Notes: generated by a model not told the origin, from the sequence alone. A DNA stretch of 60,186 bases from Bdellovibrionales bacterium (GCA_022450595.1 JAKUPT010000010.1:1-60186); one strand, 5' to 3'. Positions 1,709 through 45,877 are shown, counted from the first letter of the stretch. Numbers and translations are program-made.

Positions 1709-4423
1709 TTATTCAACAACAAGAGTTGGAATATTGATATTGGGCTTGAAACCACTTTGAGCATTATTATTTTCCCCCCAACAAAATAGCTTTTCACTAT
1801 CTATACCGCAGGTGTGATAACTACCTAAGGCAATGGTATTCCAAGCGTTTGAATTGCCGATTTTTTGTGGGACCTCAATATCACTTGTTGATCCGCTGCC
1901 ATTTCCGATCTGACTATAATAGTCTTCTCCCCAGCAAAATAGCTCGCCATTATCAATACCACAACTATGTCCACCACCTGTAGAAATCATACTCCAAGTG
2001 TTTGAACTGCCGATTTTTTGTGGGGCCTCAATATCACTTGTCGAGACATTTCCATTGCCAATTTGACCATTATAGTCTTGCCCCCAACAAAACAGCTCGC
2101 CATTATCAATGCCACAGGTGTGAGAGTTGCCAGCAGAAATTGCAGTCCATGTGTTTGAGCTGCCAATCTTTTGTGGAGCTTCGACATCACTTGTAGTGCC
2201 ACTCCCATTGCCTATTTGCCCAGTAGAGTCCTCTCCCCAACAATACAGTTCACCATTATCAATGCCACAAGTGTGAAATTCATTTGAAGAAATCATACTC
2301 CAAGTGTTCGAGCTGCCAATTTTTTGTGGGGCTTCCACATCACCTGTGAAGCCGCTGCCATTTCCGAGTTGGCCAGCAAAGTCCATACCCCAACAGTAAA
2401 GCTCCCCATTGTCAATACCACAAGTGTGTCCGTTGCCTGTAGAAATCTTACTCCAAGTGTTAGAGCTGCCGATTTTTTGTGGGGATAAAACATCATCAGT
2501 CCAGCCACTGCCATTACCAACTTGACCACTAGAATCTCTTCCCCAACAGTACAGTTCGCCATTATCAATGCCACAGGTGTGAGAGTTACCTGTAGAAATT
2601 GCAGTCCACGTGTTAGATTCGTTAATTTTTTGTGGTACTGGTATATTACCACTGAAGCTACTACCAATTCCTAGTTTTCCAAAACCATTACTACCCCAAC
2701 AGTACAGTTCACCCTTGTCAATGCCACAGGTGTAAGAATCACCAGTGGAAATTATATCCCATGTCTTTGAGTCGCCTACAATTTTTGGGGCATCAATGGA
2801 GCTTGTTGCTTTGCTGCTGTTACCGAGCTGTCCATTATTGTTTCGGCCCCAACAATAGAGTTCATTGTTTTTTATGCCACATGTATGAGTATTACCTGCA
2901 GCAATCATTAACCAATTAGTTGAAGCTCCTAGTCTTGTTGGGGTTTCTACATTGCCTATGGAGGAGTAACCATTACCTAATTGACCAAAATTATCTCCCC
3001 CCCAACAGAAGAGCTCACCATTATCAATACCGCAGGTGTGATAACTACCTAAGGCAATAGCACTCCATGCGTTTGAACTGCCGATTTTTTGCGGAGCTTC
3101 GATATCACTTGTAGATCCACTGCCATTACCTAATCTACCATCACTATCTGCTCCCCAGCAATAAAGCTCACCGTTATCAATGCCACAAGTGTGAGAGCGG
3201 CCTGCTGCAATAGTGCTCCACATGCTTGAGCTGCCAATCTTTTGTGGAGCTTCTATTGCACTTGTACTTCCACTGCCATTACCTATTTGCCCCCTGAAGT
3301 CTACTCCCCAACAAAAAAGCTCACCGTTATCAATGCCACAGGTGTGATAACTACCTAAGGCAATATCACTCCAAGTGTTTGAACTGCCAATCTTTTGTGG
3401 AGTCTCTACATTACTTGAAGAGCCACTGCCATTGCCGACTTGACCATAATTATCTCGTCCCCAACAAAAAAGCTCACCGTTATCAATGCCGCAGGTGTGA
3501 TAACTACCTGAGGCAATAGCATTCCAAGTGCTTGAGCTGCCGATTTTTTGTGCAGATAAAACATCATTAGTCGAGCCACTGCCATTACCAATCTGACCAT
3601 CATTATCAGTCCCCCAGCAGTAAAGTTCGCCACTAGCTATAGCACATGTATGAGAGTTTCCTGTGGAAATTTTATTAAATACTTTTTTTGATTCATAAGC
3701 TCGTAAGTCTAAAAACACATTATCAATATTAGGTTTAAGATTTTTAACAGAAAAACCATAATAAGCTGTATTTGAAAAACTAGAGGAGCTTGGAATGCTA
3801 AAGCTCAGGTCTACTTTATTTGCGCCCTTGACGGCACTGATTTTCCCTTTTGTAGAATATTCTAAGAACGGAAGGGGTGTATCTTCTTGACTAAATAGTT
3901 CGTATTCAACATCTGCTTTAAAAGGTAAAGGCTCAGAAAACTCTACACTGATCTGCTTAGTGTTTCCACCTTTTTGAACAGCTATAGCTTTTTCACTAAA
4001 ACTGTAAGTAATGGCATTGGACCCAGTTATTGTGATTATTTCACTCACTTTAGTTTTTGAACCTTGACTGACTTGCACTTGGTAAGAGCAAGTTGAGGAG
4101 AGCTCAAGCATTGCTTTTACCCCACTAATCACTCCCGTGGTGGAGTCAATACTAAGACCTGTGCAAGTGTTATTAATTAATTGAAATTCAGGGGTTAAAG
4201 AATAAGTTGAAAGTGAACTAGAGCCTGGTGTGTAGTCCACACTGGGTTTACAGTAATAACTTAAATTAACAGGAGCTTTTTCTGAACAGTTAGGATTTAA
4301 TATAAGCTGCTCTTTCTTTTCCAGTGAATCGAACACTGCCGTGCAGCCCATAAAACTAAAGGCAATAATTAGTATAAATGATCTTTTCAAAAAACATACG
4401 GCCATCAAATGAGTTATCGACAT
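1709..4423 (-). CDS. RCC1-repeat lipoprotein, 904 aa
   Basis: Surface or periplasmic lipoprotein: hydrophobic leader with lipobox SFMGC near residue 27, mature end CTAVFDS. After the leader comes an Ig-like putative domain (segment around STTGVISG, a He-PIG-like signature). From about residue 250 to the C-terminus there are 13 RCC1-type repeats of about 51 residues, each built on G-x-HTCGIDNGELYCWG and G(Q)xGNGSGS-x-APQKIGSS. RCC1 repeats form seven-bladed propellers, so 13 copies could make nearly two. Repeats are highly alike in DNA, inviting copy-number change. The leader contains a second possible start at residue 7. The molecular role is unknown; adhesion or partner binding is inference. 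A paralogue by architecture lies at 7569-10442. Confidence 0.85.
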   Translation of the reverse strand: MSITHLMAVCFLKRSFILIIAFSFMGCTAVFDSLEKKEQLILNPNCSEKAPVNLSYYCKPSVDYTPGSSSLSTYSLTPEFQLINNTCTGLSIDSTTGVISGVKAMLELSSTCSYQVQVSQGSKTKVSEIITITGSNAITYSFSEKAIAVQKGGNTKQISVEFSEPLPFKADVEYELFSQEDTPLPFLEYSTKGKISAVKGANKVDLSFSIPSSSSFSNTAYYGFSVKNLKPNIDNVFLDLRAYESKKVFNKISTGNSHTCAIASGELYCWGTDNDGQIGNGSGSTNDVLSAQKIGSSSTWNAIASGSYHTCGIDNGELFCWGRDNYGQVGNGSGSSSNVETPQKIGSSNTWSDIALGSYHTCGIDNGELFCWGVDFRGQIGNGSGSTSAIEAPQKIGSSSMWSTIAAGRSHTCGIDNGELYCWGADSDGRLGNGSGSTSDIEAPQKIGSSNAWSAIALGSYHTCGIDNGELFCWGGDNFGQLGNGYSSIGNVETPTRLGASTNWLMIAAGNTHTCGIKNNELYCWGRNNNGQLGNSSKATSSIDAPKIVGDSKTWDIISTGDSYTCGIDKGELYCWGSNGFGKLGIGSSFSGNIPVPQKINESNTWTAISTGNSHTCGIDNGELYCWGRDSSGQVGNGSGWTDDVLSPQKIGSSNTWSKISTGNGHTCGIDNGELYCWGMDFAGQLGNGSGFTGDVEAPQKIGSSNTWSMISSNEFHTCGIDNGELYCWGEDSTGQIGNGSGTTSDVEAPQKIGSSNTWTAISAGNSHTCGIDNGELFCWGQDYNGQIGNGNVSTSDIEAPQKIGSSNTWSMISTGGGHSCGIDNGELFCWGEDYYSQIGNGSGSTSDIEVPQKIGNSNAWNTIALGSYHTCGIDSEKLFCWGENNNAQSGFKPNINIPTLVVE

Positions 4424-7568: not shown

Positions 7569-10442
7569 TTATTGTCCAGATCTTAAGTCGGCTGCAAATG
7601 AATTAAGAGCTCCACCTAAAGTGATATAATCTGAATTTTTCTTACGAATAATATAGACTCCACCTGCATATGTGATTTCATCAACCATATCAAGCATGTG
7701 ATTATTTAGAGTTTCTTTAGATAAACTCTCTAAAACTTTCCCCCATGCTACAGTTGAACCATCCGATCGACGTGCAAAAAAGGACGAAGATGTTGGAATA
7801 ATATCCACTATATCCTCAGTCAGTTCACTTGAAACCGGGGATGAATCGGCTCCAAAATTACTATCCCCCCAAGTCACAACACTACCATTAGTTTTAAGAG
7901 CTGCAAAAGCATATAATGAGCCAAAAACCTTTTGCACCCCAGAACTTAGATCGACTCCACTTGAGTCTCCTCCGTAAGCACCATATCCCCAAGATTGCGC
8001 ACTGCCATCAGTTTTAAGGACAACAAAAGCATATTTATTACTAAACACCTTTTGCACTCCAGAGGTTAAGTCAACACCTGTGGAGTCACCACCGTAGGAA
8101 GCATTCCCCCAAGTTACGGCACTTCCATCTGATTTAAGAGCTACAAAAGCATATCCATTAGTAAAAACTTTTTGCACTCCTGAACTTAAATCAACCCCAC
8201 TAGAGTCTCCACCACGTGTGCTACTTCCCCAAGTCACAACGCTGCCGTCAGCTTTAAGTGCGGCAAAGGCCTCATATCCATTAATTATATTTTGCAGACC
8301 AGAACTTAAATCGATACCAGAGGAGTCACCACCCCTGTCGCTTCTTCCCCAAGTCACAGCACTTCCATCAGTTTTAAGTGCCGCAAAGGCATATGAAGAT
8401 TTGAAGATATTTTCAATTCCCGAGCTTAAATCAACAGCACTGGAATCTCCACCACGAGTTACATCACCCCAAGCTACAGCCTGTCCATCTTTATTGAGAG
8501 CTGCAAAAGCAAAATTATTTGAGGATATTGATTTAACATTATTTAAGTTCAAATCTGCACCTTCACTAAGGCCACCATTTCTTGGATCACCCCAAGTCAC
8601 GACACCACCATCTGTTTTTAGTGCGGCAAAGGCATATGTATTACTAAAAATATTTTGAACGTCATTGGATATATCTAATCCTGTTGAATCTGACCCATAA
8701 TCAGCACATCCCCAAGTTTCAATATTTCCATTATCTTTAAGTGCAGCAAAAGCGTACTTAGTGGTAAATATTTTTTGGATACCTGAACTTAGATCAGCAC
8801 CACTGGAATCACAAGTGTAGCCAAAATTACCCCAAGTTACTGCACTCCCATCTGACTTTAAGGCTGCAAAAGAATCCCATGTGCTAAAGACTTCAATAAC
8901 ACCAGAGCTTAAATCAACGCCACTGGAATCAGATCCACTAGTGTTTGAGCCCCATGTGACGACACTCCCGTCTGTTTTTAAAGCCGCAAAAGCTCCTTTA
9001 CTACTAAAAATTTTTTGCACCCCAGTACTTAAATCCACTCCGCTGGAATCTGCTCCAGCCCCGTCACGCCCCCAAGTTACTGCACTACCGTCAGCTTTAA
9101 GTGCCGCAAAAGCTCTGGAAGTGCTGGTTATACTTACAACATTGCTACTTAAATCTACACCACTGGAGTCGCCACCATCGCCATCTTGCCCCCAAGTTAC
9201 GGCACTCCCATCTGATTTTATAGCTGCAAATACATAAGAATTGGCTATAACATCAACTACGCCTCCACTTAAATCCACTCCACTGGAATCGCCACCACTT
9301 AGATTACTACCCCAAGTAACAACACTGCCATCAGTTTTAAGGGCGGCAAAGGCACTATCGGTATTGAAAATGTTTTGTACATTTGAACTCAAATCAACAC
9401 CACTAGAGTCACCACCATTATTTGCATAACCCCAGGTAACAACACTGCCATCATCTTTGAGTGCTGCAAAAGCTCCATAGTTACCAAAAACTTTTATCAC
9501 ATCCGAGTCTATATTAACGCTACTAGAGTCACCTCCGTAGAAATCACTTCCCCAAGTAACTACACTGCCATCTTCTTTGAGTGCAGCAAAAGCGTGATAA
9601 TTATTAAATATATTTACCACTCCCGAGCTTAAATCAACCCCACTAGAGTCCCCGCCATAGCCAGCATCGCCCCAGGTAACTACACTGCCATCAGTTTTCA
9701 AAGCTGCAAAGGCTTTATCTGTAGCAAAAATTTTTACTGTGCTTTTGGCCTTCCTAAATTCATATGTCAACTTAGTATCAATACATGGTAGACTTACTCC
9801 ATTAGTAGTGGCCTTTAGATAAAACTTATAATGGCCCTCTGTCGAAATTTGACTTTCAATATCTCTAAAATCTTGTATGCTCTCAATAGATTTCTCTGCA
9901 ATTTTTTGACTACAACTGGAATCTTTGTAAACAGAGACAGTATCCCCCATATTTAAAAAATCTGTAAAGAGTATTCTAGGAGAGCTGTCTCCAGTTATGT
10001 ATTTTGAACTTATACCCAGACTGAATCCAGGCAGTTTTTTGATATAGGCTTTAAAAATTTTTTCTTCTTCTTTAACTTCGCCTTTAACAGTGGCATTAAT
10101 AATAACTTTAAATTCATAATCTCCAAACTGAGCTTTATCAGGACTCCAACTTAAGTCTCCAGAAGAAGAGTTAAAAAACAAATTATTTATATCACTACAA
10201 GGCTGAGTTTTGCTCACGGAATTATCTAATGTTAGATCATAAAAACATTTGAAGGTGTATTCTAGTTTTGATTTTGAAAGTTTATTTTGACTGCTAATAG
10301 TGACAGGATTATCCAATTCTGCAAAGTAGGCAAAATCGTTGTATTTAGTTAGCGCCAAACTTAAGTTAACCTCATTGCTATTGAAAACAGCCGTGCAGGA
10401 AATATTTAAAAATGATAAAGCTAAAATCAAACGTACAGACAT
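7569..10442 (-). CDS. large repeat lipoprotein with RCC1-like WG repeats, about 957 aa
   Basis: Lipoprotein leader MSVRLILALSFLNISC, mature end CTAVFNS, nearly the same as the protein at 1709-4423. The start at 10442 is preferred because the signal begins there; an in-frame TTG at 10469 is the longest alternative. Residues 20-240 hold non-repeated Ig or cadherin-like material. The rest is about 17 repeats of 38-40 residues with the core AFAALKTDGSVVTWG and GGDSSGVDLSSGV, a pattern related to RCC1 blades but shorter and lacking cysteine pairs. The repeats are very similar in DNA. Probably a surface propeller or solenoid; ligand unknown. Antisense frames opposite the repeats are artefacts of the repetition. 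Confidence 0.82.
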   Translation of the reverse strand: MSVRLILALSFLNISCTAVFNSNEVNLSLALTKYNDFAYFAELDNPVTISSQNKLSKSKLEYTFKCFYDLTLDNSVSKTQPCSDINNLFFNSSSGDLSWSPDKAQFGDYEFKVIINATVKGEVKEEEKIFKAYIKKLPGFSLGISSKYITGDSSPRILFTDFLNMGDTVSVYKDSSCSQKIAEKSIESIQDFRDIESQISTEGHYKFYLKATTNGVSLPCIDTKLTYEFRKAKSTVKIFATDKAFAALKTDGSVVTWGDAGYGGDSSGVDLSSGVVNIFNNYHAFAALKEDGSVVTWGSDFYGGDSSSVNIDSDVIKVFGNYGAFAALKDDGSVVTWGYANNGGDSSGVDLSSNVQNIFNTDSAFAALKTDGSVVTWGSNLSGGDSSGVDLSGGVVDVIANSYVFAAIKSDGSAVTWGQDGDGGDSSGVDLSSNVVSITSTSRAFAALKADGSAVTWGRDGAGADSSGVDLSTGVQKIFSSKGAFAALKTDGSVVTWGSNTSGSDSSGVDLSSGVIEVFSTWDSFAALKSDGSAVTWGNFGYTCDSSGADLSSGIQKIFTTKYAFAALKDNGNIETWGCADYGSDSTGLDISNDVQNIFSNTYAFAALKTDGGVVTWGDPRNGGLSEGADLNLNNVKSISSNNFAFAALNKDGQAVAWGDVTRGGDSSAVDLSSGIENIFKSSYAFAALKTDGSAVTWGRSDRGGDSSGIDLSSGLQNIINGYEAFAALKADGSVVTWGSSTRGGDSSGVDLSSGVQKVFTNGYAFVALKSDGSAVTWGNASYGGDSTGVDLTSGVQKVFSNKYAFVVLKTDGSAQSWGYGAYGGDSSGVDLSSGVQKVFGSLYAFAALKTNGSVVTWGDSNFGADSSPVSSELTEDIVDIIPTSSSFFARRSDGSTVAWGKVLESLSKETLNNHMLDMVDEITYAGGVYIIRKKNSDYITLGGALNSFAADLRSGQ

Positions 10443-10552
10443 AGGTACTATTCGTCTATTTGCAAGCAATACTTAAGGTAAGTTTCTTGTTTTGATACGC
10501 TTTTTTACAGAAAACAGTTAGATCTGATTGTATTTAAATTCAAAGCAATGTT

Positions 10553-19271: not shown

Positions 19272-22200
19272 TTATAGTTCATCTGCCCCGACATCCCAAG
19301 GCACACTTCGATTCGACCCTTCTATATCGATTGAAAATGGGAAGCTTGCATCACCGGAAAGGTCAGTACCAGCTCCTACCTGATCAGAGCTAGATCCCTG
19401 AATACGCAGATCATCGTTGGTGAAGTCTCCGTCGTCTGAAAAACTAACAAATAATTCACTTGTGGTTTGAGATGTTAAAAAACTATTCGCTCCAAAGTTT
19501 GTGGGCATAACAACATCTGTAATGTTGTAATCAGAGTCAGCATGCAATTGGAGAGTTCTTTTGCAACTATTTACATTACACTGTAGCGCCAAGGTATTTT
19601 TTAATATCATATTGCCCTCTTCGTGATTAAATCCATAGAGACTCCTAATAGTGGTGGTGTTATAAATACGCATAAAACCTCCACTTACTCTATAAAATAT
19701 CGCAGAAGAATAGCCCGCAATAATATTGTTTATTGAAAAACACTCACCACATCCAACAATAGACATTCCATTATTTCCCTGCCCAGCACTTCCTGAAAAG
19801 ATAAAGAGGTTATTTTTAATATAATGCTGACTATAATAATCGTCACTAGAGTTAACGTAAATCCCGTCAGCTGAACTATTTCCTGGTGATTGAACATATA
19901 TCTGCAGCCCCTCAATAATACTATTGTTAGCACTCATAATAATAGGTGTTGTGTCGGTGGTAACAATACGTACCGCAGAGGTGCTCCAAGCCCCAACATG
20001 TCGCTGGCTTACTCCCACTTCGGTGGGTGAAGAAGGGGCAAATAAATGAATATGATTAGCTCTAGTTGTTTTCCAACCAACATTAAAATTAACCCCCTCG
20101 CTAAACACAGCATCGTTGTAAAGAGCAAGGTGCCAGACTTCATCCGTACCAGTGAGTACAGATATATCTCGATCACCGGAGCCGTCAAAGCTGCGCAAAG
20201 CAAGGTCAATTCCAGTATTTTCAATTTGATTCTCAGCATCGGCTAAGGATGTATAAGACCTATAGATCGACCAGTCGGTATCAGATGTTGTCGCTACTGG
20301 GGTTCCACCCAAGCTGTTTTTTACAACAAACTGAGTTGATGAAACTCGAGAGTGAATAAATGCAATAGCATCAACAGTATTGGCTCCACTGCCATTACCC
20401 CCGCCATCAGAATCATACTGAATAGCATCCCCTACTCCTACGTTATCAGGCAAAGGGCTTGAAAATACTGCCGTCGATGCACTTATTGACATGGCATTTG
20501 CTCCGCCTACAGCTAAGGCCGAAGTGCTGCCGTATCCAACCGACCTATAAAAATGCACAGGATTAGGAAGGGGAAATGATTTGTTCAAAGGATCAGGGTC
20601 TGCCGTATCTGGGTCCGCAGCAATTGTGCGCACTTTTATAGTATCTCCTGGGTTATATCCTGCCGGAAGAGTTCTTATATCTGCGGTGAAAGCCTTAAAA
20701 CTCCTTGTCATTACAACAGAATTTCCCGTCTGCGGATCACAACCAGGGTTATCGGTATAATTGCAGTAATAAAAGGTAACTCTGACATCTAAATCGATAT
20801 CGCGTGTGGACTGCGCAGCGATCGAAAAACTATCCGTGTCCAACTTGTGAACCACTAACCCGTTCAACTGAATGTCGGTTAACCTAATGGTTGCATTTTG
20901 TGGCGACTGATAAACCCCCTCGGGGTCAGTGACAATCACACGTAGGTTTAGATAATCATTAGGGTCATTCGGCATCGTCAATCCTGTCACTGAAGCTACA
21001 TAGTTTGCCCCAGTAAGAGTCATTGCAGCCGATGAGCCAGCTTCTGGGTTACAACCAGGACTATCGGTCTCGTTACAATACCAAACTGTGGCCGCTGAGT
21101 TGGTCTCGGGGTCACCAGAACTTGGAACACTGATTTCAAAGCTTGTTCCAGTGGCTCTGACGAGTTCAATTGGAGAAAGAACTACTTGAGCAAGAGGAAC
21201 AGTGCCTGTTTTGGGTGAGTCGATAGAACCATTTGGATCTGATGCAACCGCCGCCACTGACATAAGATCAGCCTCATCGTTAGGTGCTGTAAGACCCGAG
21301 ACTGTCGCAGTGAAGGTTGTACCAGTTCGATTCATCAAAACAGATGTCCCTGTGGTAGTAGGATCACACCCAGGACTGTCAGTCACATTGCAGTAATAAA
21401 GAGTGACAGAGCCGTTTTGTTCTAAATCTCCTTTTGATGGCACTGTTGCAGTGAAACCTGCTTTGGTCTGAGCACTAAAGGTAAGACCATCTAAATCCAA
21501 AGCTGTGCCATCTAGTGTTACTGTCGATGATATTGGGCTGTTTGAAGTTCCATTTGTATCCGTTGCTACAGCCCGAATATTAAATACATCAGTTGGAGAA
21601 GTTAGTCCTGAAATAGTCACAGTATAGGAAGAGCTACCTCTAGTCATGGCAGAAGAGGCTCCCGCACTAGGGTCACAACCTGGCACTTCACTAGCATTAC
21701 AATAGAAAAGATTGACGGAGCCATTAGTATTCATATCACCGGTAAAATCCACTGAGGCATCAAAGGCGCTTGAGGTGATATTACTAGCTGCTAAATTGCT
21801 AATTGATAGAGAGTATATACTTAAAGTTGTTGTAGTGCTCTGAGGAGAGCCACTAGAGCCATCTGTATCGGATGCAACTACTCGTATATTAAAAGTATCC
21901 CCTTCGTCATTGGGCGAACTGAGAGAACTTATGCTGGCAGTATAGCTAGATGTACCTTTAGTCATTGCCACACTAACTCCAGTACTTACTGGATCACAAG
22001 CTGGAGCGTCGGTTGAATTACAATAATAAAGTGTCGTATTACCATTTGTATTTTCATCGCCATTAAAGTCGACACTGACGTCGAAAGAGTTGTTAGTCAC
22101 ATTACTTATAAGTAAATTACTAAGAGACAAAGAATAGGTTTTTAATGTCACAGTTGAGCTGAGTGGTGACCCCATAGTGCCATCAGGGTCCTGTGCTATG

Positions 22201-22910
22201 AGCTCAATGTTCAACACATCTGCTTCATCATAAGGAGAGGATAATGAAGTAATGCTTGCACTAAATTTTGATGCTCCTTTAATCATATTTATTGAAGATC
22301 CCACACTGCTTGGGTCACAACCAGGAGTGTCGGTATTATTACAATAATAAAGAACAGCGGAGCCATTTTCATTAAAATCACCAAAAAAATCACCCGTAAC
22401 ATCAAAAGAATTATTAGTAATATTTGATATTGTTAGGTTCGAAATAGACAGCCCTTCTTCACTTAGTAGCTGAAAACTCCCTGTAAAACGAGTTGGACTA
22501 TCTTTATCTATATCTGTGATATCTATAATGTAATTAAAAGAATCTTCAGGATCATTAGGAGAACTTAAATTACTTATAAGACCTGAAAAAGTGCTACTGC
22601 TTGTTCGTATTAGATTTAAAGAGACACCAGTCTTAGCATCACAACCAGGAGTATCTGTATTGTTGCAATAAAAAAACTTAGCTGTAGCATTTGAATTTAA
22701 ATCACCAGTATAATTAATATCAACTTTTAAAGAGTCTGATGTCAGGACAGTTATGCTGTGGTTTTCAACAGATATCTTATCATTGGCTAGATACCCTTCT
22801 TGTATCTTACCAATACTACCACCGCAAGCGACTAAGAAAAAAGGAGTAGTAACGCTTACAAAACAATGGAATAACCTTAAAATATACGTACAATAATTAC
22901 AGGCATTCAC
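19272..22910 (-). CDS. giant surface lipoprotein: seven Cys-containing Ig/FnIII-like repeats plus beta-helix, 1212 aa
   Basis: Leader ends in lipobox FFLVAC followed by GGS. Residues 40-760 contain seven repeats of about 100 residues; each has a strand such as LTISNITNNSFDV, a GD-x-NxNG turn, YCN-x-TD-x-PGCDP with two cysteines, and SPNDE-x-D-x-x-N. They look like fibronectin or Ig-type sandwich domains with a strand-linking disulfide. The C-terminal third (about 800-1212) looks like a right-handed beta-helix: IIEGLQIYVQSP, YIKNNLFIFSGS, SINNIIAGYSS, RIYNTTTIRSLYG, ILKNTLALQCN. GTG start with AAAGG upstream. Probably an adhesin or polysaccharide-binding surface protein; ligand unknown. Confidence 0.82.
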   Translation of the reverse strand: MNACNYCTYILRLFHCFVSVTTPFFLVACGGSIGKIQEGYLANDKISVENHSITVLTSDSLKVDINYTGDLNSNATAKFFYCNNTDTPGCDAKTGVSLNLIRTSSSTFSGLISNLSSPNDPEDSFNYIIDITDIDKDSPTRFTGSFQLLSEEGLSISNLTISNITNNSFDVTGDFFGDFNENGSAVLYYCNNTDTPGCDPSSVGSSINMIKGASKFSASITSLSSPYDEADVLNIELIAQDPDGTMGSPLSSTVTLKTYSLSLSNLLISNVTNNSFDVSVDFNGDENTNGNTTLYYCNSTDAPACDPVSTGVSVAMTKGTSSYTASISSLSSPNDEGDTFNIRVVASDTDGSSGSPQSTTTTLSIYSLSISNLAASNITSSAFDASVDFTGDMNTNGSVNLFYCNASEVPGCDPSAGASSAMTRGSSSYTVTISGLTSPTDVFNIRAVATDTNGTSNSPISSTVTLDGTALDLDGLTFSAQTKAGFTATVPSKGDLEQNGSVTLYYCNVTDSPGCDPTTTGTSVLMNRTGTTFTATVSGLTAPNDEADLMSVAAVASDPNGSIDSPKTGTVPLAQVVLSPIELVRATGTSFEISVPSSGDPETNSAATVWYCNETDSPGCNPEAGSSAAMTLTGANYVASVTGLTMPNDPNDYLNLRVIVTDPEGVYQSPQNATIRLTDIQLNGLVVHKLDTDSFSIAAQSTRDIDLDVRVTFYYCNYTDNPGCDPQTGNSVVMTRSFKAFTADIRTLPAGYNPGDTIKVRTIAADPDTADPDPLNKSFPLPNPVHFYRSVGYGSTSALAVGGANAMSISASTAVFSSPLPDNVGVGDAIQYDSDGGGNGSGANTVDAIAFIHSRVSSTQFVVKNSLGGTPVATTSDTDWSIYRSYTSLADAENQIENTGIDLALRSFDGSGDRDISVLTGTDEVWHLALYNDAVFSEGVNFNVGWKTTRANHIHLFAPSSPTEVGVSQRHVGAWSTSAVRIVTTDTTPIIMSANNSIIEGLQIYVQSPGNSSADGIYVNSSDDYYSQHYIKNNLFIFSGSAGQGNNGMSIVGCGECFSINNIIAGYSSAIFYRVSGGFMRIYNTTTIRSLYGFNHEEGNMILKNTLALQCNVNSCKRTLQLHADSDYNITDVVMPTNFGANSFLTSQTTSELFVSFSDDGDFTNDDLRIQGSSSDQVGAGTDLSGDASFPFSIDIEGSNRSVPWDVGADEL

Positions 22911-23173: not shown

Positions 23174-25954
23174 CTAGTAAAACATAAATCTACAACTCAT
23201 TCCTACATTTTGATTTTCATGAATAACCTTTATTGCGTCATCAAAATACGGTCTATAGCTTTGATCCATAGAGCTTACATGTTCTTTAAAAGCTGTACGA
23301 AACTGACTAGTACCATGCTCATAGTATTTTATAAACTTATCCCATACATCCATGTCCGGAGAATTTAAAACATATGGCATCAATGACAAAACTTGTTTGG
23401 ATCTAATGTCTGTTTTAACAACTATATCAAAAATCTCATAATGCTTCATAATTTCAAAGGCATTTATAAACTCAGTTTTGTTATTTCTTTCGTATTTATT
23501 TAAATTGTCTATAAAAAGTCTTAAATAGTGTTGGGAGCTAAACATATCTTTTCGGTATAAATCCCTTAACCTAATTGTGAGCTCTTCAAATAAGTCAGTT
23601 CCAACTAAGTATCCAGACAATGAAAAGAGCACATTGTTCCAGCTTTGATGTTTACTTTGAGATAAATGAAATTCATGATCAATAATATTTAAAATTCTTA
23701 CCGCCTGCATTTTAAGTGGATCATTATTATTAAGTTTTAATGCATCTATAAAAACACTTTCTAAAAAGTAATTATTGGGAGTATTAATTGTAGTTTTCTC
23801 AGCGTTTTTTCTTACTGACTCAAGCCATTTGTCAAAAAAATCCTCTGAAAACATCAACCTAAGCATATCAATTGAAATAATTTTGAAAAGGTAGTCTTCA
23901 ACTTTTTCATACAAATTATATTCTGTAATAATTTTTAATTTATCAGCTAACTTTGTTATGTCTTTTTCAAACTCAATAACCTTAGATAAATACTCTGCAT
24001 CAATAATATCTTTATAGTTTTTTACTACATATTTAAAGAATCTGTCTTTATTTTTAGCTTTGCTATCATGAAGAATTTCTTCAATATTAACAAGTAGAGT
24101 GGTGAAATCCATCACTCCAGTACTATAGCTTTCTTTTAGATTATGAATATCTAAGTCTTTAACAAGTCTAATGGCATTTTTTGTTTTATCTTCGCTCGAT
24201 TTTATAAATCGTGAGACTCTTTGAATACCAACACTTTGATAGTGCTTAAAGGCTTCATGATCGATTTGTGATTTTAAAACGTATAAGACCTTTAAAAAAT
24301 AAAGAGCTTTTTGATATTCTGTTGGAGGTTGAGGTTGAATTTTGTCTCTATCTTTTTTTGGTACTCTCCAAACAAAAGGCTTATAATTACCTTTGTTATT
24401 ATGAATATGTCCATCTTTTTCACTAAAAGAAGAACTCCATGCAGATAAAGAATATAATCTATTTTCTGGTGATATCACATAAAGCTCTGAATGATTTTTG
24501 TTAAAGACAACAAAAGATTTATAGCCAAGCTTTTGAGCCAAAATCTTTCCTCTTAGAGCTGTATCCCGACAGTCATTAGCACAACCCAACACATCATCGT
24601 TTGCTAATAGTTTTATAACATCTAGCTTATGAGTTTTTGAGGCCTCAGCCTTTAATCCAACTAAAATTGGCAAAGCCGCCTTCATTTGTTCATTGAAGCT
24701 TGTATATCTTAACTTTAAATCATTAGCTACAATATCTAAGAAAACACTGACTTCAGAATTAAAATCTAGAAACATTTTAGGATGTTGACCGCCATGTGAT
24801 TGGCTACCATCAATAATCATATAATGTTCTAATTTATCTAAAGACTGTAATCGCTTTGGAATCTCTCTTTCTAATGTACTTAGTGTATGTGTATTTCTTT
24901 TAAAATAATCCATCCAATATGAAGTTGGTCTGGTTATTTTTCTAGATGAGACTTTTCTCTCAAGAGAAGTTTCAATAAATTCAGCAAGCTTTGGGATATT
25001 GAATTTTTCATATATATCAATTGCATAGCTAGGTTTCGTGCTTTCTATTAAAGATTTTGTTAAAATTTTATTCATTCTTTGCAAGATATAATGAAGACTA
25101 TTTCTATCCAAATCAGCCTCAGTGACTGAGTTTAGATAGTCTGTAATAATTTTTTTAACCAAATCATCTGACTGAACATCACCTTTTAATTCGTATCTTG
25201 CCAGGTTAGCAATATACTTTACAGCGGAAACGATTTCAGGATTTTTGCCGGCCTTTGCTAAAGCAGTTTCAGAATGATTTTCTGAATGAAAGTAGTAGTT
25301 TGTTTCTTTCAAAAAAGCGTCCAAATAAGATTTTCCATCAGGGGTATTTTTGGTTCTCACATCGTAAAGTGAGGGATATTTTTTTGATAGTTTTTTGTTA
25401 AGTGGTAACACTCTTATCATTCCACTAGAAATGGCATCAGTGTTTTGTTGGTTAATATTTTTGTTTTCAAAAATTCCACGATCATTTTCATAATGAAGTG
25501 ATACAGTTTCCCATCTCGTTTTTCCCTCAACAACCTCTGGAAAATGCTCCTTCAGCTCTTCAACTAAGTTATTTCTGATTTCATGTGTGGCATCAACCGC
25601 AATATCAACATCTGAAATATGACTTAAAAGATGCCTTGAAAAGCTTTTTGGAAGTCCTGTTGCTCTTTTATTACCTTTTTTTCTCTCTAGATATTCATGA
25701 ACAGCAGATACAATCTGATGTGCGGCCCCACCGTAAATATAGATGGGCATAGATCTAGGCGTCCAATAAGTGGAGTCTTTATCGTGTTGTTTATTATTTT
25801 CTGATAAAAACTTTTTAATGATTTCAGCTTCTTGAGTTTTCGATAAGTACTCTAAAACCGCATCTTCAAGAACCACACTCTCAAGTCGAACTCTGTCGAT
25901 GGCAAAAACATTTATTGATAAAATTGTTATTATAAAAAACAACAGACTTTTCAT
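23174..25954 (-). CDS. exported protein with nucleotidyltransferase-like and transglutaminase-like segments, 926 aa
   Basis: Signal peptide MKSLLFFIITILSINVFA with AGGGGAA site upstream. Residues 70-122 resemble the polymerase-beta-type nucleotidyltransferase core of CCA/poly(A) polymerases: IYIYGGAAHQ (glycines 75-76), then a DVD at 115-117 followed by IAVDA. Residues 455-505 resemble a transglutaminase/papain-like core: CANDCRDTALRGKILAQKLG (Cys462), NHSELYVI (His488), ENRLYSLSAW. The rest is helical with no recognised domain. It is 30 bases downstream of the AAA+/M41 chimera on the same strand, so very likely the same operon. Both enzymatic calls are motif-based; either could be inactive. 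Possibly a substrate, adaptor or co-effector of the chimera. Confidence 0.65.
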   Translation of the reverse strand: MKSLLFFIITILSINVFAIDRVRLESVVLEDAVLEYLSKTQEAEIIKKFLSENNKQHDKDSTYWTPRSMPIYIYGGAAHQIVSAVHEYLERKKGNKRATGLPKSFSRHLLSHISDVDIAVDATHEIRNNLVEELKEHFPEVVEGKTRWETVSLHYENDRGIFENKNINQQNTDAISSGMIRVLPLNKKLSKKYPSLYDVRTKNTPDGKSYLDAFLKETNYYFHSENHSETALAKAGKNPEIVSAVKYIANLARYELKGDVQSDDLVKKIITDYLNSVTEADLDRNSLHYILQRMNKILTKSLIESTKPSYAIDIYEKFNIPKLAEFIETSLERKVSSRKITRPTSYWMDYFKRNTHTLSTLEREIPKRLQSLDKLEHYMIIDGSQSHGGQHPKMFLDFNSEVSVFLDIVANDLKLRYTSFNEQMKAALPILVGLKAEASKTHKLDVIKLLANDDVLGCANDCRDTALRGKILAQKLGYKSFVVFNKNHSELYVISPENRLYSLSAWSSSFSEKDGHIHNNKGNYKPFVWRVPKKDRDKIQPQPPTEYQKALYFLKVLYVLKSQIDHEAFKHYQSVGIQRVSRFIKSSEDKTKNAIRLVKDLDIHNLKESYSTGVMDFTTLLVNIEEILHDSKAKNKDRFFKYVVKNYKDIIDAEYLSKVIEFEKDITKLADKLKIITEYNLYEKVEDYLFKIISIDMLRLMFSEDFFDKWLESVRKNAEKTTINTPNNYFLESVFIDALKLNNNDPLKMQAVRILNIIDHEFHLSQSKHQSWNNVLFSLSGYLVGTDLFEELTIRLRDLYRKDMFSSQHYLRLFIDNLNKYERNNKTEFINAFEIMKHYEIFDIVVKTDIRSKQVLSLMPYVLNSPDMDVWDKFIKYYEHGTSQFRTAFKEHVSSMDQSYRPYFDDAIKVIHENQNVGMSCRFMFY

Positions 25955-25984: not shown

Positions 25985-28900
25985 TTATTGAAATAACGAA
26001 ATACACTTCCCCGCGGATCTTCCGCTGTCAACACTCATAAGATTAAAAAATGCCCGTGTTTTATTCACATTTTCTATTTTTGGAGATGTTTTTTTGTACT
26101 TTGTCATCATTATCTTTTCAAACTGCTGTTGAGAAATCTCACCGTTTTTCATTAAACGCTCTACGATTTTTTCAACAAACTCCCACTTTTCACTCAGCTC
26201 ATATATCGCGATCTCTGTGGCCTGCTTAAAAAGCTCTTCACTTTTTTTAAGCATTTGTGGACTTAATCTAAAGTTTTGTTGATCATTATTCGATACCATT
26301 GGCAGCTCTGATATAAATTCTGGAAAGATCCCATATTCGGTGATAGCTGATTTAATAATAGATCTTGCCATTTGAACATCTTGCCTCATTCCTGCATCAG
26401 CCTCAAATCCGGCCATTTGCTGTGAAATGCTACCTGCAAGTAGACCTGCCACTCTGTACAGTACACTGTTTTGAGTCACTGAGGGACTTCCCGGCATTGG
26501 GGTGTATCTTGCGTATCCAAGATAGTGCCCTCGTCCAACTATGGTGATAAAAGCCAATTTTTGGTTGGTGTATTTCGGGTTGTTAACCACAGCGTGACCG
26601 GCCTCATGAAAGCTTGTTAATTTAGCTTGATCTTTGGATTGAAGATGAATGACATCGGCAAAGTCAGTCACTTCAACGGAGACTGTATCTATCACTTTGC
26701 CTTTGTTGTTTTTAATATTAGCAACAATTTCTACCTTTCTTTCGTAGTTTGTTACATCTTCAATAAAAGGCTTGTTAGGCATATTGTCTTTAATTTCTAA
26801 ATTTATAGTTGCATCGGTTAACTGGTGGGACATCAACTTAATTCGAGCTTTTACAATGGTCGATGTAAGCTGAGATTCAATCACACTTCTTAAGCTTCTA
26901 GCCCCCTTGTCGTGAGTGAAAAACACACGTCCAAGAGTCTTTTCAAACTCTTTGTCATAATTAATTTTAATTTCTTGTTCTTTTAGTTTTTCGTGAATAG
27001 GTGATAAAAATTTTGGAGCAATGTATTCTGCAACTACCTCGCGCGTCAGTGGCTTCATTAAAATCACATCTAGCATTCGACCTAAAAAGGCTTCTGGAAC
27101 TCCACTTTCAAGAAGCAACTTATGAAGAGTTGACTGCTTTCGGCTATGATCCCAAATAGTCAGTCGTATATCATCGGCAGCCACACCCTTAAATAAATTT
27201 TCACCATCATTACCTGTAAAAATAAATACATGCTTTGAAAGGTCATACACTTTACCTGTAGCTGTAGATTCCCAACGCCTTTCGTCTGTGATTTCATACA
27301 TCTCTTTAAACAGTTCATCTTTTAAGGCTTTATTATTTCCACCCATATTAGAGGCTTCATCAAATAAAAGCACACCGCCTTCTGGGTTTGAAATTAAATA
27401 CCTTTCAAATTGCCCAGCCTTATCACCACTGACATAACCTGGAGGCGGGTTAAATACTTTATTAAAGTCCCCTTCAAACCTAATGGTTCCTAAGTTAATA
27501 AATCCTGTTCTATTGCTTGAACCATAAAGGGTTTCTGCTAAGGCTTTGGCAGTTTCTGACTTCCCTGTTCCTGTAGACCCAATAAGAAATAAGCTCATAG
27601 CTCTTTGGCGTTCTTGAGAATCTCCAATATGAGAGATAACCGCTTCACTGATTTTTTGGATCATTTCATTTTGTCCAAAAATTTTATTACTCATATTTTT
27701 ATGAAGATTTTCAATAATATTTAATATGCTCTTGTCTTGAAGTGGGTCTGTCACAGGCTTTGCTGGAGCATCTATTTTAGTCAATTCTGTATCATTGTTT
27801 GAAACCACAAATTTTTGATCTTGATAGCTGATATCTACTTTAATGTCTTCGCCCCTGTCTACTACATGCTCTGCAATAGATAATTTTATGTCAGTTAAGA
27901 TTCTTTCCATTGAGCGAATAATAGGCCTGGCCCCATATTCACTGTTGTAATTATGGTTCACTAAAATTTCTATGACCTCTTTGTCGATTCTTAATTCAAT
28001 GCCCGTGTCATATTTAAATCGACTAACGATCTCATTGAGATAATTCACAGCAATGTGCTCTGCAGAGGTTTTATTTAATGGAGCTGCAACTGTAAAAATG
28101 TCTATACGGTTTTTAATTTCTGGTGGAAGCTTTCCTTGATCCCCATAGTTACCGCTACTCTTGTGGTCTACCATCTCTTTTAAGCTGTCAGAGGTCATTT
28201 TTCCTAAAAAGTTGCGCATTTCAGACTCAGTCCAAGATTCCCAAGACTTTGGAAAGATCATGTCCACACTTCTGTTTGAAGTCATAATAAAAAGAAGATT
28301 TTTAACGTGACGGACCTTACCATCACCACCAGTTATTATACCTCTGTCTTGTAGCTCCATAATCCTTTGTAAGTGATCTGGATGCATCTTCTCAATTTCG
28401 TTAATAAGAACGATACCGCCCTTTCCTCCACGGCCAGGGTCGTCTATCCACTCTATAAACTGTCCAGACGTCTTTTGAGAAGATTCAATACCATTTGGGG
28501 CACCAAACAAGCTGTTGCCTTCAAATCCACCTTTAGAGAGTTCATTGCCGTTGATTTCAAAAAAGGCCCCTCGATTGTTTAACACAATCTCGCTCAAACT
28601 TTGCCCCAGGTAGGTTTTACCAGTTCCCGTAGTTCCTACTATATAAACCGAGGCCACGTTTTTATTTCTTGATTGAAGAAGTCCCGAGTAGGCGTTAAGA
28701 ACGTCTTTATTCATTCTCTCTTGGCCCACAACTTTTTCATTTAGCTTTGCTTCCACCTGATTAAAGAACTTAAAAAACTCAGAAAAGTTATTTGGGTCAA
28801 CAGGAAGACTGTAATACTCTCGTACAATTTCAGAGAGCTCATTTTTACCAATTTCTTTAATGGCTTCATCAGAGGTGGTCGAGTTTCTAATGGCAATGGA

Positions 28901-30148
28901 TTCAAGGATTTTAATGCTTCCATCTACTTTACCGTTGTTTGGAAGAAGTTTTAATGAGTCCTCAATCACTCGATCTATGATCTCTTCTTGAAACCTCACC
29001 CCATGGCGCCTTTCAACCTTAGTGATCCAGGTGTCGTAAAGTATCTGTTTCACTCTGTCATTTGGAAGCTCTTCAACACCAACTTGTTTGACTCGTCTTA
29101 AAAAAGCCTTATTGTCCTTAAAAGCCAAATTGAACTCTTCAGAGGTCGAAGCAAATATAAACTTTAAATTGCCTTGTGATTCTAGATAGCGTTTTAATGC
29201 TTCAACTTGGGCTTTTTCTAAAGTGTGAACTTCATCAATAAAAATAGCGATGGGTTGCTTAAGCTCTTTTTGAGCCGCTGAAACGGCCTCGACATACATT
29301 TCAATAGCTGCAGCCTGCGAGGCACTGTCGTTGGATTTTGCTAGAGTTGAAATCTTTGCCGGTGTGGTTTCAATGACTGTTAAGTCTTTTAAACTTTCAA
29401 AAGATCGGTTTTTAGGAAGCTGGTTATTAAATGAGATCTCATCAATTGCAACAGCAATGGAAGTTTTACCTACACCTGCTGGCCCTACAAGCACAGGGTT
29501 ACGACCTTTAATTCTTGCTAACACCTCAAGTGTTTGCATCACCTCTTTGTCACGACCTACAGTGGGAATGTATTCGTTGGCGGCCTTTTTCTCTAAAGCC
29601 TCATCACGCAAAAAGCCAACGGTACCCTCTAAGATAACTTCACCAAATTTTAAAGAGGCTATTTTGTCTTTTATAGAGGCATCTTCTGAAACCAATGAAG
29701 ACATACTTGTAAGCTCATATTGAGGTGAGTTTTGTAACCGGCTTTTTAAGTTATCAACTGCCGTATGAATAAACTGAACACCTTTTTGATCAGCAAGCTT
29801 TCCTTCAGAATTGGCAGCTTCAAATCTTTCAATCAGATCGGAGATTTTTCCTGAAGTTTCAGCATTGATAAAATGATTTAATGAATCAAAGGCTGCAGAA
29901 AGAATAAAACTATTAAGTTTTTTATTATTATTAACACTTTTAAGTTGTGTTTCGACGATTGTGACAACTTTGTCATAAACTTCAAAATACTTATAACTTT
30001 CAAGTGTTTTAAGTGTTTCACTAACAACTACGGCATCGGTATTTCCTAAGTTGGAAATAACATCTCTAACTTCATAAAGTTTTTCCTGTGAAGCCTGTAA
30101 TTGAAAACAAAAGATCGTTGCTATAATAAAGCAAGACAATATACGCAT
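25985..30148 (-). CDS. exported triple Clp-type AAA+ ATPase fused to FtsH-type M41 metalloprotease, about 1387 aa
   Basis: Start placed at ATG 30148, preceded by GGGGTGA and opening signal peptide MRILSCFIIATIFCFQLQA; an in-frame start 69 bases upstream would bury it. Order: helical N-region (about 25-175); AAA 1, ClpB-D1-like (Walker A GPAGVGKT 222-229, Walker B FIDE with Asp305-Glu306, Arg pair FLRR); AAA 2, ClpB-D2-like (GTTGTGKT 505-512, Walker B reads LINE with Asn583 for Asp, NRIDIF, GARP sensor 2); AAA 3, ClpB/ClpC-D2-like (GSTGTGKS 857-864, PPPGYVSG pore-loop region, FDE 930-931, PEAFLGR, GARS); then an M41 peptidase with HEAGH 1181-1185, ITIVGRG, and third-ligand Asp1257 in MRQDVQMA. 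No FtsH-type AAA module or membrane helices are present. Neither ClpB nor FtsH has this order. How an ATPase would be powered outside the cytosol is unresolved. Confidence 0.85.
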   Translation of the reverse strand: MRILSCFIIATIFCFQLQASQEKLYEVRDVISNLGNTDAVVVSETLKTLESYKYFEVYDKVVTIVETQLKSVNNNKKLNSFILSAAFDSLNHFINAETSGKISDLIERFEAANSEGKLADQKGVQFIHTAVDNLKSRLQNSPQYELTSMSSLVSEDASIKDKIASLKFGEVILEGTVGFLRDEALEKKAANEYIPTVGRDKEVMQTLEVLARIKGRNPVLVGPAGVGKTSIAVAIDEISFNNQLPKNRSFESLKDLTVIETTPAKISTLAKSNDSASQAAAIEMYVEAVSAAQKELKQPIAIFIDEVHTLEKAQVEALKRYLESQGNLKFIFASTSEEFNLAFKDNKAFLRRVKQVGVEELPNDRVKQILYDTWITKVERRHGVRFQEEIIDRVIEDSLKLLPNNGKVDGSIKILESIAIRNSTTSDEAIKEIGKNELSEIVREYYSLPVDPNNFSEFFKFFNQVEAKLNEKVVGQERMNKDVLNAYSGLLQSRNKNVASVYIVGTTGTGKTYLGQSLSEIVLNNRGAFFEINGNELSKGGFEGNSLFGAPNGIESSQKTSGQFIEWIDDPGRGGKGGIVLINEIEKMHPDHLQRIMELQDRGIITGGDGKVRHVKNLLFIMTSNRSVDMIFPKSWESWTESEMRNFLGKMTSDSLKEMVDHKSSGNYGDQGKLPPEIKNRIDIFTVAAPLNKTSAEHIAVNYLNEIVSRFKYDTGIELRIDKEVIEILVNHNYNSEYGARPIIRSMERILTDIKLSIAEHVVDRGEDIKVDISYQDQKFVVSNNDTELTKIDAPAKPVTDPLQDKSILNIIENLHKNMSNKIFGQNEMIQKISEAVISHIGDSQERQRAMSLFLIGSTGTGKSETAKALAETLYGSSNRTGFINLGTIRFEGDFNKVFNPPPGYVSGDKAGQFERYLISNPEGGVLLFDEASNMGGNNKALKDELFKEMYEITDERRWESTATGKVYDLSKHVFIFTGNDGENLFKGVAADDIRLTIWDHSRKQSTLHKLLLESGVPEAFLGRMLDVILMKPLTREVVAEYIAPKFLSPIHEKLKEQEIKINYDKEFEKTLGRVFFTHDKGARSLRSVIESQLTSTIVKARIKLMSHQLTDATINLEIKDNMPNKPFIEDVTNYERKVEIVANIKNNKGKVIDTVSVEVTDFADVIHLQSKDQAKLTSFHEAGHAVVNNPKYTNQKLAFITIVGRGHYLGYARYTPMPGSPSVTQNSVLYRVAGLLAGSISQQMAGFEADAGMRQDVQMARSIIKSAITEYGIFPEFISELPMVSNNDQQNFRLSPQMLKKSEELFKQATEIAIYELSEKWEFVEKIVERLMKNGEISQQQFEKIMMTKYKKTSPKIENVNKTRAFFNLMSVDSGRSAGKCISLFQ

Positions 30149-30489
30149 AATCACCCCAATAATTATTTTTATATCCCTCAACATCTTGGTATTGAAATCT
30201 ATGCATATATAAGTCAAGTGCTAGAAATTTAGTAATAATGAAATTCTTATATTTGAATGTAATTATGTAAGTAGAAGCTTAGGTAAAATTTAATCATAAC
30301 AAGCCGTTCTCGACACTAAATCTATCAATCAGAGTACTTATTAAGCAATCTTGATAACTTTTTACAAAATTGTATAAAAAGCATTTTTATCATCTATTAA
30401 AAGTGAACTTAAAGAAGAATCAGCTAATAGAAGTATATAAATATTATAGGGATAAGTTGGATTGTAAAATTGACTAGATGTAGGAATGT
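30149..30489. other. intergenic AT-rich stretch upstream of the AAA+/M41 operon
   Basis: About 340 bases between the patatin stop and the chimera start. No convincing reading frame, RNA or repeat seen. It should contain the promoter of the minus-strand operon. A TTGACT hexamer is present on the minus strand near 30217 but no good -10 box at standard spacing was found. Confidence 0.5.
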
Positions 30490-44431: not shown

Positions 44432-45877
44432 TTATTTATTATGTACTAAATATCCATTTGCATAGTACGTATGACTGCGATCATCATCCGGACTAACTGG
44501 TGATCCATAAGCGGCCTCTAGTTTTAAATTGTACACTGTCAAACTTTGATTCCTTATTTGAATAGCATCAGAGTACTCTAATAATTCTGTTCGGTTTTCT
44601 ATACGAATTAACTGATCACCTAAGCCTAAAGCTCCATCCACAATAAATTTATTATGCTCTAAGAATGTTGCTACCGGATTAAAAGACTTCCATTCTTCAT
44701 CTCCTGTATTAGGATTGACAGTTTTCACCGGATGCTCTGAAGTTATAAAGTGGTTGTCGTCATTAAAGGAGTGTAAATATCTATCTCCCAGAGGAACTCT
44801 TTCAATTCCTACCACTTCATTAATGGCTCCACCTTGACCTAATACCAAGTCACCAATTTTAACTTTGGAAATAACAACTTCACTCACCCCATCGGCCATA
44901 AGGATTTTGGTTTCAGCGGTAAAACAACTGCTACCGGCACCACCACCTGAACCCGGATCATGGCGACATCCTGGAGGCCCTCCGGAAATTTTACCATCGT
45001 TACATCTGTATTTTCCACTTCCGCCGCCAGTGTAACGACCACTACAGTGTCTATGATAAGTTTTTGAACTTTCGCCATGTTTTATTGAAATAGTACCGCT
45101 TCTAGTTCTTACATTATTACAATGCCTATAGCATGTTTCAGTTTTTCCATAAATTTTTCCAGAATCACAGTATCCAGCCTTATAGCAAATTTTAGTTCTA
45201 CTATCATAGGGAGTCCTATAACTTTCATTGTGTTCAACAACTTTTTTTGCATCTTTAACAAATCCACAAGATACATGATTTAAAGCAGAACACTTCTCAG
45301 TGCCGTCACTTTGCTTCGTATATTTTCCATCTAAAGTTTCACACATTTGTTTTTTTGTAATTTCAGGCTCTTTAGCACAACTTAAAATTTCTCTAGTTGT
45401 GGGATCTACCGTTAAAAGCACAGTTCCGGCCTGTTGGGGTTTTAGCTCTCCACCTATGAGTTGAACTCTTGGCTTGAAAGTCACCATAAGGTCGGCCTTA
45501 TACTGGTCAGATGTTCCTTGCCTAGATGAATCCTCAATATAAACTCTAGCAATATCTAGATTTTGATCATATTGCTCGCCAGATTTTAATACACGTCCAT
45601 CTTGAAGTCGGAATGTTAAATCCATTCCGTCACCACCGGGGCGTGCTTTTGAGTGATCATAACGTTGCGTGGTACCAGTGATCGCATATTCACATGTGTC
45701 TTCAACAGAAATCATTGTTTGAAGCTCATTAATCAGTACAAAGCTCGACATTTTAACTTCTGTTCTTTTGGTGGCTTTAGTTGACATGACCATCATTTGA
45801 GACAGACCCAGTGTTACAACAGATGTTAGCCCTACCGCCACCATCACCTGAATTAAACTCATTCCTTTATTATTCAT
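44432..45877 (-). CDS. type IV pseudopilin fused to C-terminal Hint (intein-like) domain, 481 aa
   Basis: N-terminus is a prepilin leader: NNKG|MSLIQVMVAVGLTSVV, cleaved by prepilin peptidase after Gly5, then a hydrophobic helix. Position +5 is Gln, not the usual Glu. Residues 45-165 are a pseudopilin-like globular part. Residues 167-304 carry eleven cysteines, followed by a Gly/Ser linker (PGSGGGAGSS). From Cys318 to the end is a Hint domain: block A CFTAETKILMADG, KIGDLVLG, block B ITSEHPV (T379xxH382), and the end YLVHNK with His479-Asn480. The chain stops one residue later at Lys, so there is no +1 nucleophile or C-extein. N-terminal autocleavage or thioester transfer at Gly-Ser-Ser|Cys318 is possible; protein splicing is not. 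Confidence 0.88.
   Translation of the reverse strand: MNNKGMSLIQVMVAVGLTSVVTLGLSQMMVMSTKATKRTEVKMSSFVLINELQTMISVEDTCEYAITGTTQRYDHSKARPGGDGMDLTFRLQDGRVLKSGEQYDQNLDIARVYIEDSSRQGTSDQYKADLMVTFKPRVQLIGGELKPQQAGTVLLTVDPTTREILSCAKEPEITKKQMCETLDGKYTKQSDGTEKCSALNHVSCGFVKDAKKVVEHNESYRTPYDSRTKICYKAGYCDSGKIYGKTETCYRHCNNVRTRSGTISIKHGESSKTYHRHCSGRYTGGGSGKYRCNDGKISGGPPGCRHDPGSGGGAGSSCFTAETKILMADGVSEVVISKVKIGDLVLGQGGAINEVVGIERVPLGDRYLHSFNDDNHFITSEHPVKTVNPNTGDEEWKSFNPVATFLEHNKFIVDGALGLGDQLIRIENRTELLEYSDAIQIRNQSLTVYNLKLEAAYGSPVSPDDDRSHTYYANGYLVHNK

Follow-up and report, generated by a model that had tools for sequence, protein, structure and literature searches.

Can a bacterium run an ATP-driven protease outside its cytosol? 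This question is raised by a gene in a 60,186-nucleotide stretch of DNA from a Bdellovibrionales bacterium (GCA_022450595.1 JAKUPT010000010.1:1-60186; hereafter the window), which a preliminary description had proposed to encode an exported chain of three Clp-type AAA+ modules and an M41 protease. Textbooks place bacterial AAA+ proteases in the cytosol or at the inner membrane, on the view that the periplasm has no ATP. The gene (25985..30148, minus strand, as are all features of it and its partner given below) is a single unbroken open reading frame (ORF) of 1387 amino acids with an ATG at 30148. A ribosome-binding site, GGGG, is recognizable in the sequence at 30154..30157, 5 nt 5′ of the ATG, and no GGGG-type site lies upstream of an alternative longer start, TTG at 30217. 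The encoded chain is a member of a real, widespread, and previously undescribed family in predatory-type bacteria, here called Clp-M41, and it is probably an exported, self-contained single-chain AAA+ protease, a functional analogue of ClpAP or i-AAA.

Domain order and catalytic residues of the Clp-M41 chain

Searches against Pfam, NCBIfam, and PDB sequences placed a signal peptide-like N terminus, AAA1, AAA2, AAA3, and Peptidase M41 in this order along the 1387 residues, while the approximately 165 residues between the signal peptide and AAA1 matched no confident family. Pfam detected AAA_2 (E 1.3e-27), AAA in three stretches, ClpB_D2-small in two stretches, and Peptidase_M41 at residues 1170-1346 (E 6.2e-20, far over its cut-off). 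Together with an AlphaFold2 model of the C-terminal part, these searches bore out the three Clp-type modules plus M41 in one chain, and the predicted order of AAA_2, ClpB_D2-small, and Peptidase_M41 held in the hidden Markov model calls. AAA1 (residues 190-440, 28829..29581) is Clp D1-like with Walker A GPAGVGKT at residue 222, and AAA2 (residues 455-790, 27779..28786) is ClpA/B D2-like, carrying a D2-small lid and Walker A GTTGTGKT at residue 505. D1- and D2-type modules thus follow each other in the order of class I Clp/Hsp100 proteins. NCBIfam ClpA (TIGR02639) covered residues 185-752 with an E value of 1.4e-76 but below the equivalog cut-offs, so the protein is neither ClpA nor ClpB proper. 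The first two modules had been described as ClpB-like; their Clp type stands, but instead of two equal ClpB modules they form a ClpA/B-like D1-D2 pair.

AAA3 (residues 797-1120, 26789..27760; Walker A GSTGTGKS at residue 857) is a second ClpB/ClpC D2-like ring. The D2 part of NCBIfam ClpV matched residues 809-1117, and in an AlphaFold2 model of residues 797-1387 (the C-terminal 591), built with 30 relatives and having a mean predicted local distance difference test (pLDDT) of 88.8, AAA3 superposed on ClpB nucleotide-binding domain 2 with Z 25 over about 304 residues, in agreement with the earlier assignment of this module to the ClpB/C-D2 type. HSP101 (6e11, 6e10) was among the structural matches to the AAA3 and M41 model. 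Since the structural comparison spanned model residues 1-353, the M41 fold is supported by the sequence matches and the AlphaFold2 model. The Peptidase M41 domain (residues 1165-1347, 26108..26656), assigned from Pfam, PDB sequence matches, and this model, contains both hallmarks that had been noticed at the outset, namely the HEAGH zinc site (residues 1181-1185, 26594..26608), identified by sequence and alignment, and the distal Asp ligand D1257 (26378..26380), which is invariant in 30 relatives. With an HExxH and a distal Asp, in a domain that exceeds the curated M41 score, the protein is a member of M41. FtsH_fam matched the protease part alone (residues 1171-1340), scoring 61 bits where its cut-off is 600, and the module directly before M41 is not FtsH-type, AAA3 matching ClpB/ClpC D2.

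Each of the three modules has an intact Walker A motif. Aromatic pore loops like those of ClpB are missing from AAA1 and AAA2, with FGAPNG in AAA2 at the position of ClpB's GYVG; AAA3 keeps a GYVS loop, the only aromatic pore loop in the protein. Among 30 aligned members, with a mean column identity of about 29%, the Walker A Gly and Lys, the Walker B Glu, the sensor-1 Asn, and the Arg finger of AAA3 were invariant. The same held for the HExxH Glu and its two zinc-binding His, for one Gly, for the distal Asp, and for a Cys near the C terminus. Invariance of these catalytic columns in such divergent members implies that ATP hydrolysis and zinc proteolysis are probably under selection.

Like FtsH, m-AAA, and i-AAA (YME1), the Clp-M41 chain joins AAA+ and M41 with HEAGH and a distal Asp, but it has no transmembrane (TM) anchor beyond the signal peptide, its AAA modules are of Clp type, and it has three rings, not one. 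The i-AAA protease, too, has its site of action beyond a membrane, as proposed here for Clp-M41. With ClpA/ClpC-ClpP and ClpB/Hsp104 it shares the D1-D2 ring pair and the D2 fold; it differs from them in an extra D2-like ring, in a fused M41 in place of a separate ClpP, and in its predicted export. In addition, ClpN was not among the best 25 of 41 Pfam families matched (nor the best 25 of 32 in a second search), and no ClpP-binding IGL/F-type loop was seen when the sequence was inspected by eye. That ClpB-type unfoldases carry no peptidase, as had been remarked, is right for known ClpB.

Distribution and predicted export of the family

A single-protein search of genome contigs gave no relative, and an alignment query was needed to find them. 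Full-length relatives with the same domain order then appeared in three genomes (G032, G033, and G006), and further ones in Bdellovibrionota records, one "Deltaproteobacteria" metagenome-assembled genome, and two alphaproteobacteria in culture, Roseiarcus fermentans and Rhodoblastus acidophilus, the only named isolates among the carriers found. Because these full-length chains come from independent genomes, an assembly chimera, a pseudogene, or a chance ORF is ruled out. At a strict cut-off, the family was present in 37 of 369 genomes (about 10%), representing 26 of the 182 genera of the phylum. Among its variants are chains in which only two AAA modules accompany M41 and chains with AAA modules but no M41 (L041); in a deep sister group (12 tree rows) the first P-loop ends in GKD. 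A search of open-licence papers turned up no account of this architecture. Thus the domain order does recur in other genomes, but not only in predators as had been asked, because R. fermentans and R. acidophilus, neither of which is known as a predator, also carry it.

The predicted signal peptide comprises residues 1-20 (30089..30148; MRILSCFIIATIFCFQLQA, followed by SQ), as judged from N-terminal hydropathy and a cleavage site placed by eye. It is the sole N-terminal hydrophobic segment and is of signal-peptide type; there is no other TM-like segment in the chain, no 19-residue stretch after residue 30 averaging above 1.6 in hydropathy. The segment may also remain as an uncleaved signal anchor. 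A crude signal-peptide rule flagged about half of all ORFs and was superseded by a controlled comparison of the family with cytosolic Clp paralogues of the same order, based on the 12-residue stretch of highest mean hydropathy within the first 60 residues. Median peak hydropathy was 2.70 in the family (n = 36) versus 1.82 in 24 paralogues (p 6e-10), and core cysteines numbered 0.52 per 1000 residues (18/34321) versus 5.0 in cytosolic Clp controls (91/18132; p 8e-26), both p-values being indicative only, as the sequences share ancestry and are thus not independent. A signal peptide was missing from two relatives only, both alphaproteobacterial, with peak hydropathies of 1.28 and 1.54 and 2.5-3.3 core cysteines per 1000 residues; their partner protein lacks a signal peptide too. 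Wherever the protease has a signal peptide, so has its partner: a second type of partner bears one beside the signal peptide-bearing protease of L061 and lacks it beside the proteases of L059/L060 that have none. As the alphaproteobacterial pair clusters with L061 (support 98/99, in an unrooted tree with many deep branches unresolved), loss of the signal peptide would be the simplest reading for this pair. Hydrophobic N termini, ten-fold depletion of core cysteines, signal peptides on the partners, and paired signal loss in the alphaproteobacteria together strongly support export of the Clp-M41 family, as predicted from these sequence features. Both the Sec entry and the ATP-driven unfoldase-protease outside the cytosol that the preliminary description had envisaged are supported accordingly, at the level of prediction.

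A C-terminal cysteine tail and the partner loci

One feature of the chain had been missed by the preliminary description. The protein ends in a cysteine tail, CISLFQ (C1382; 25988..26005), for which the family pattern is S-C-x-x-L-[L/F]. A Cys lay no more than 24 residues from the end in 46 of 46 members, often preceded by Ser or Thr and followed by L-[L/F] at +3/+4, and it is usually the sole Cys of the mature chain. The 14 members that came to light once the pattern was already recognized all carry the tail; among 26 cytosolic Clp controls, just one has a Cys within 25 residues of its end. Near-identical tails occur on unrelated proteins of one genome (SCKSLF and SCKSLFR in G016) and similar ones on paralogues of another (CRLSAK, CRSSAAGN, and CRRSAN in G033). 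On another contig of the source genome, an exported 895-aa protein with no Pfam family (L120:10672-13359) ends in MCIKLFPSAS. Samples from G032 (400 kb), from the source genome, and from part of G016 gave no support for a general secretome tag, and a genome-wide search of the source genome with the tail pattern was too unspecific.

The tail may serve in covalent attachment, a disulfide, or docking. A cysteine-switch inhibitor of M41 is disfavoured, since L041 keeps the tail without M41 and the AlphaFold2 model of residues 797-1387 leaves the tail disordered. The idea that an FGE-type domain receives or modifies the tail was also rejected: G003, G005, G016, G020, G021, and G030 have the tail and no FGE match, and the two FGE-bearing partners counted hold one Cys in all. 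A literature search on tag systems returned other C-terminal tags only. In the MYXO-CTERM/myxosortase system, exported proteins carry an invariant C-terminal Cys together with a TM helix and an Arg-rich end (PMC11980579). The invariant Cys on exported proteins is common to both, but the motif here is C-x-x-L-[L/F], and each sampled genome had it on only a few proteins. The Clp-M41 chains stop 1-23 residues past the tail Cys, too short for a MYXO-CTERM TM helix plus basic end, and comparison with the published system (PMC11980579) thus ruled out that the tail is MYXO-CTERM itself. A lipidation and surface-anchoring signal merely comparable to it, which would place the machine on the cell surface and is compatible with an exported protease, would account for an invariant Cys at the extreme C terminus and for its occurrence on unrelated partners, at times in the same letters as in G016. 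We regard this as a tentative and somewhat doubtful proposal, given the missing helix and basic end (PMC11980579), the finding that the tail is no general trait of the exported proteins sampled, and its presence in homologues that have no signal peptide.

The partner gene (23174..25954), 30 nt downstream of the protease gene, encodes 926 residues with a signal peptide and ends in a tail of the same kind, SCRFMFY. Its residues 68-322 (24989..25753; GGAAH ... DVDIAVD) form a nucleotidyltransferase-like domain, as judged from homology and a model match. This region is homologous to proteins adjoining the protease in G032 and G195, and Foldseek matched the N-terminal part of the partner model to tRNA nucleotidyltransferases (probability 1.00, E 2e-4), with which GGAAH and DVDIAVD are consistent. 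In G300 (L232:4751-11733), the partner homologue and the protease are fused in one open frame of 2327 aa with an FGE-type end, from which an upstream part bearing the signal peptide is separated by a stop. Elsewhere, an exported protein with a circularly permuted ATP-grasp domain adjoins a Clp-M41 gene (L243:2398-5595), and an AAA-type protein with a C-terminal Cys tail adjoins an exported SpoVR-DUF444 fusion (L053:1-7844, L055:3-9352). The latter pair resembles an exported look-alike of cytosolic YeaG-YeaH-YcgB, its putative PrkA label being drawn from position and P-loop only. Exported proteins that apparently use nucleoside triphosphates (NTPs) thus recur in such loci, in the form of the nucleotidyltransferase-fold partner, the circularly permuted ATP-grasp protein, and SpoVR-DUF444.

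An exported 652-aa protein with a 2H-phosphoesterase (LigT/2′-5′ RNA ligase) domain lies near another Clp-M41 gene (L242:12119-14077). Other genes of the window include a 481-aa ORF (44432-45877) whose residues 318-360 give a short Hint/intein-type match, two large RCC1-repeat proteins (1709-4423 and 7569-10469), and a 1212-aa protein (19272-22910) with a lipobox-like LVACGG start, several YYCN...GCD repeats, and no Pfam family.

Proposed mechanism and alternative explanations

In the mechanism that we propose, the chain would be made as a Sec precursor, lose its signal peptide, and assemble on the outer side of the cytoplasmic membrane, in the periplasm or beyond, with a hexamer as the likeliest form. 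AAA1 and AAA2 would form a Clp-type double ring that grips the substrate, and AAA3 would pull it, driven by ATP, into the chamber of the fused M41 zinc protease; we infer this threading because AAA3 alone keeps an aromatic pore loop. Through its unstructured Cys tail, the machine would most likely be attached to, or dock onto, some shared structure or partner. The hexamer, the use of ATP in that compartment, the role of the tail, and the substrates are likewise inferred. Clp-type ATPases are known outside the cytosol: Torsin works in the endoplasmic reticulum (PMC7175109) and Plasmodium HSP101 (PTEX) in the parasitophorous vacuole (PMC7355975), although both are eukaryotic, without a fused protease, and with no Cys tail reported.

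Several points weigh against an exported protease of this kind. Hexamer and threading are predicted from homology, free ATP in the bacterial periplasm is not established, AAA1 is degenerate in its Walker B in some relatives, and the partner model is weak beyond its N-terminal domain (mean pLDDT 56). The alphaproteobacterial homologues, although apparently no longer exported, also retain the tail, which is therefore not simply a surface-sorting tag. Doubt about the ATP supply, together with the degenerate AAA1 and the lack of aromatic pore loops in AAA1 and AAA2, would fit an exported protein in which the AAA+ modules are a nucleotide-bound scaffold, not a motor, and M41 is a plain oligomeric zinc protease; in AAA3, however, Walker B E931, the sensor-1 Asn, and the Arg finger do not vary across 30 divergent members, which makes this distinctly improbable. 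Still harder to credit is an ordinary cytosolic Clp protease with an N-terminal segment not functional in export. The alphaproteobacterial relatives apparently work in this way, but ten-fold Cys depletion, family-wide hydrophobic N termini, signal peptides on the partners, and their coupled loss in the alphaproteobacterial pair speak against it for the family.

As for the energy source, ATP from the prey cytoplasm, suggested in the preliminary description, is possible but dispensable, and as a general explanation it lacks support. In such a prey-directed version, the machine would, during predation, be released into or face the prey, whose ATP would drive unfolding and degradation of prey proteins, much as HSP101 operates in the host vacuole. 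The phylum is known for predators, and the recurring exported partners, apparently NTP-using, would themselves need NTPs. This prey-directed role nevertheless seems unlikely, since about 90% of the genomes of the phylum lack the family at the strict cut-off, two non-predatory alphaproteobacteria carry it (though their copies seem to lack export), the source genome has no match to a TLC-type ATP/ADP translocase, and the source organism is not established as a predator.

An exported, ATP-driven Clp-M41 protease thus stays our preferred reading. It is about an even chance that Clp-M41 and its nucleotidyltransferase-fold partner, along with ATP-grasp and PrkA-like proteins in other loci, belong to an extracytoplasmic NTP-powered toolkit of the Bdellovibrionota, some of whose members share the undescribed Cys tail; if true, this would mean that NTPs are available for use outside the cytoplasm. 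Because the family is conserved, has intact catalytic residues, and combines export signals with cysteine-poor cores, it makes extracytoplasmic bacterial ATP directly testable. The short Cys tail may define a new attachment system, and the Clp-M41 family is a candidate for ATP-driven proteolysis at the bacterial surface or inside prey.

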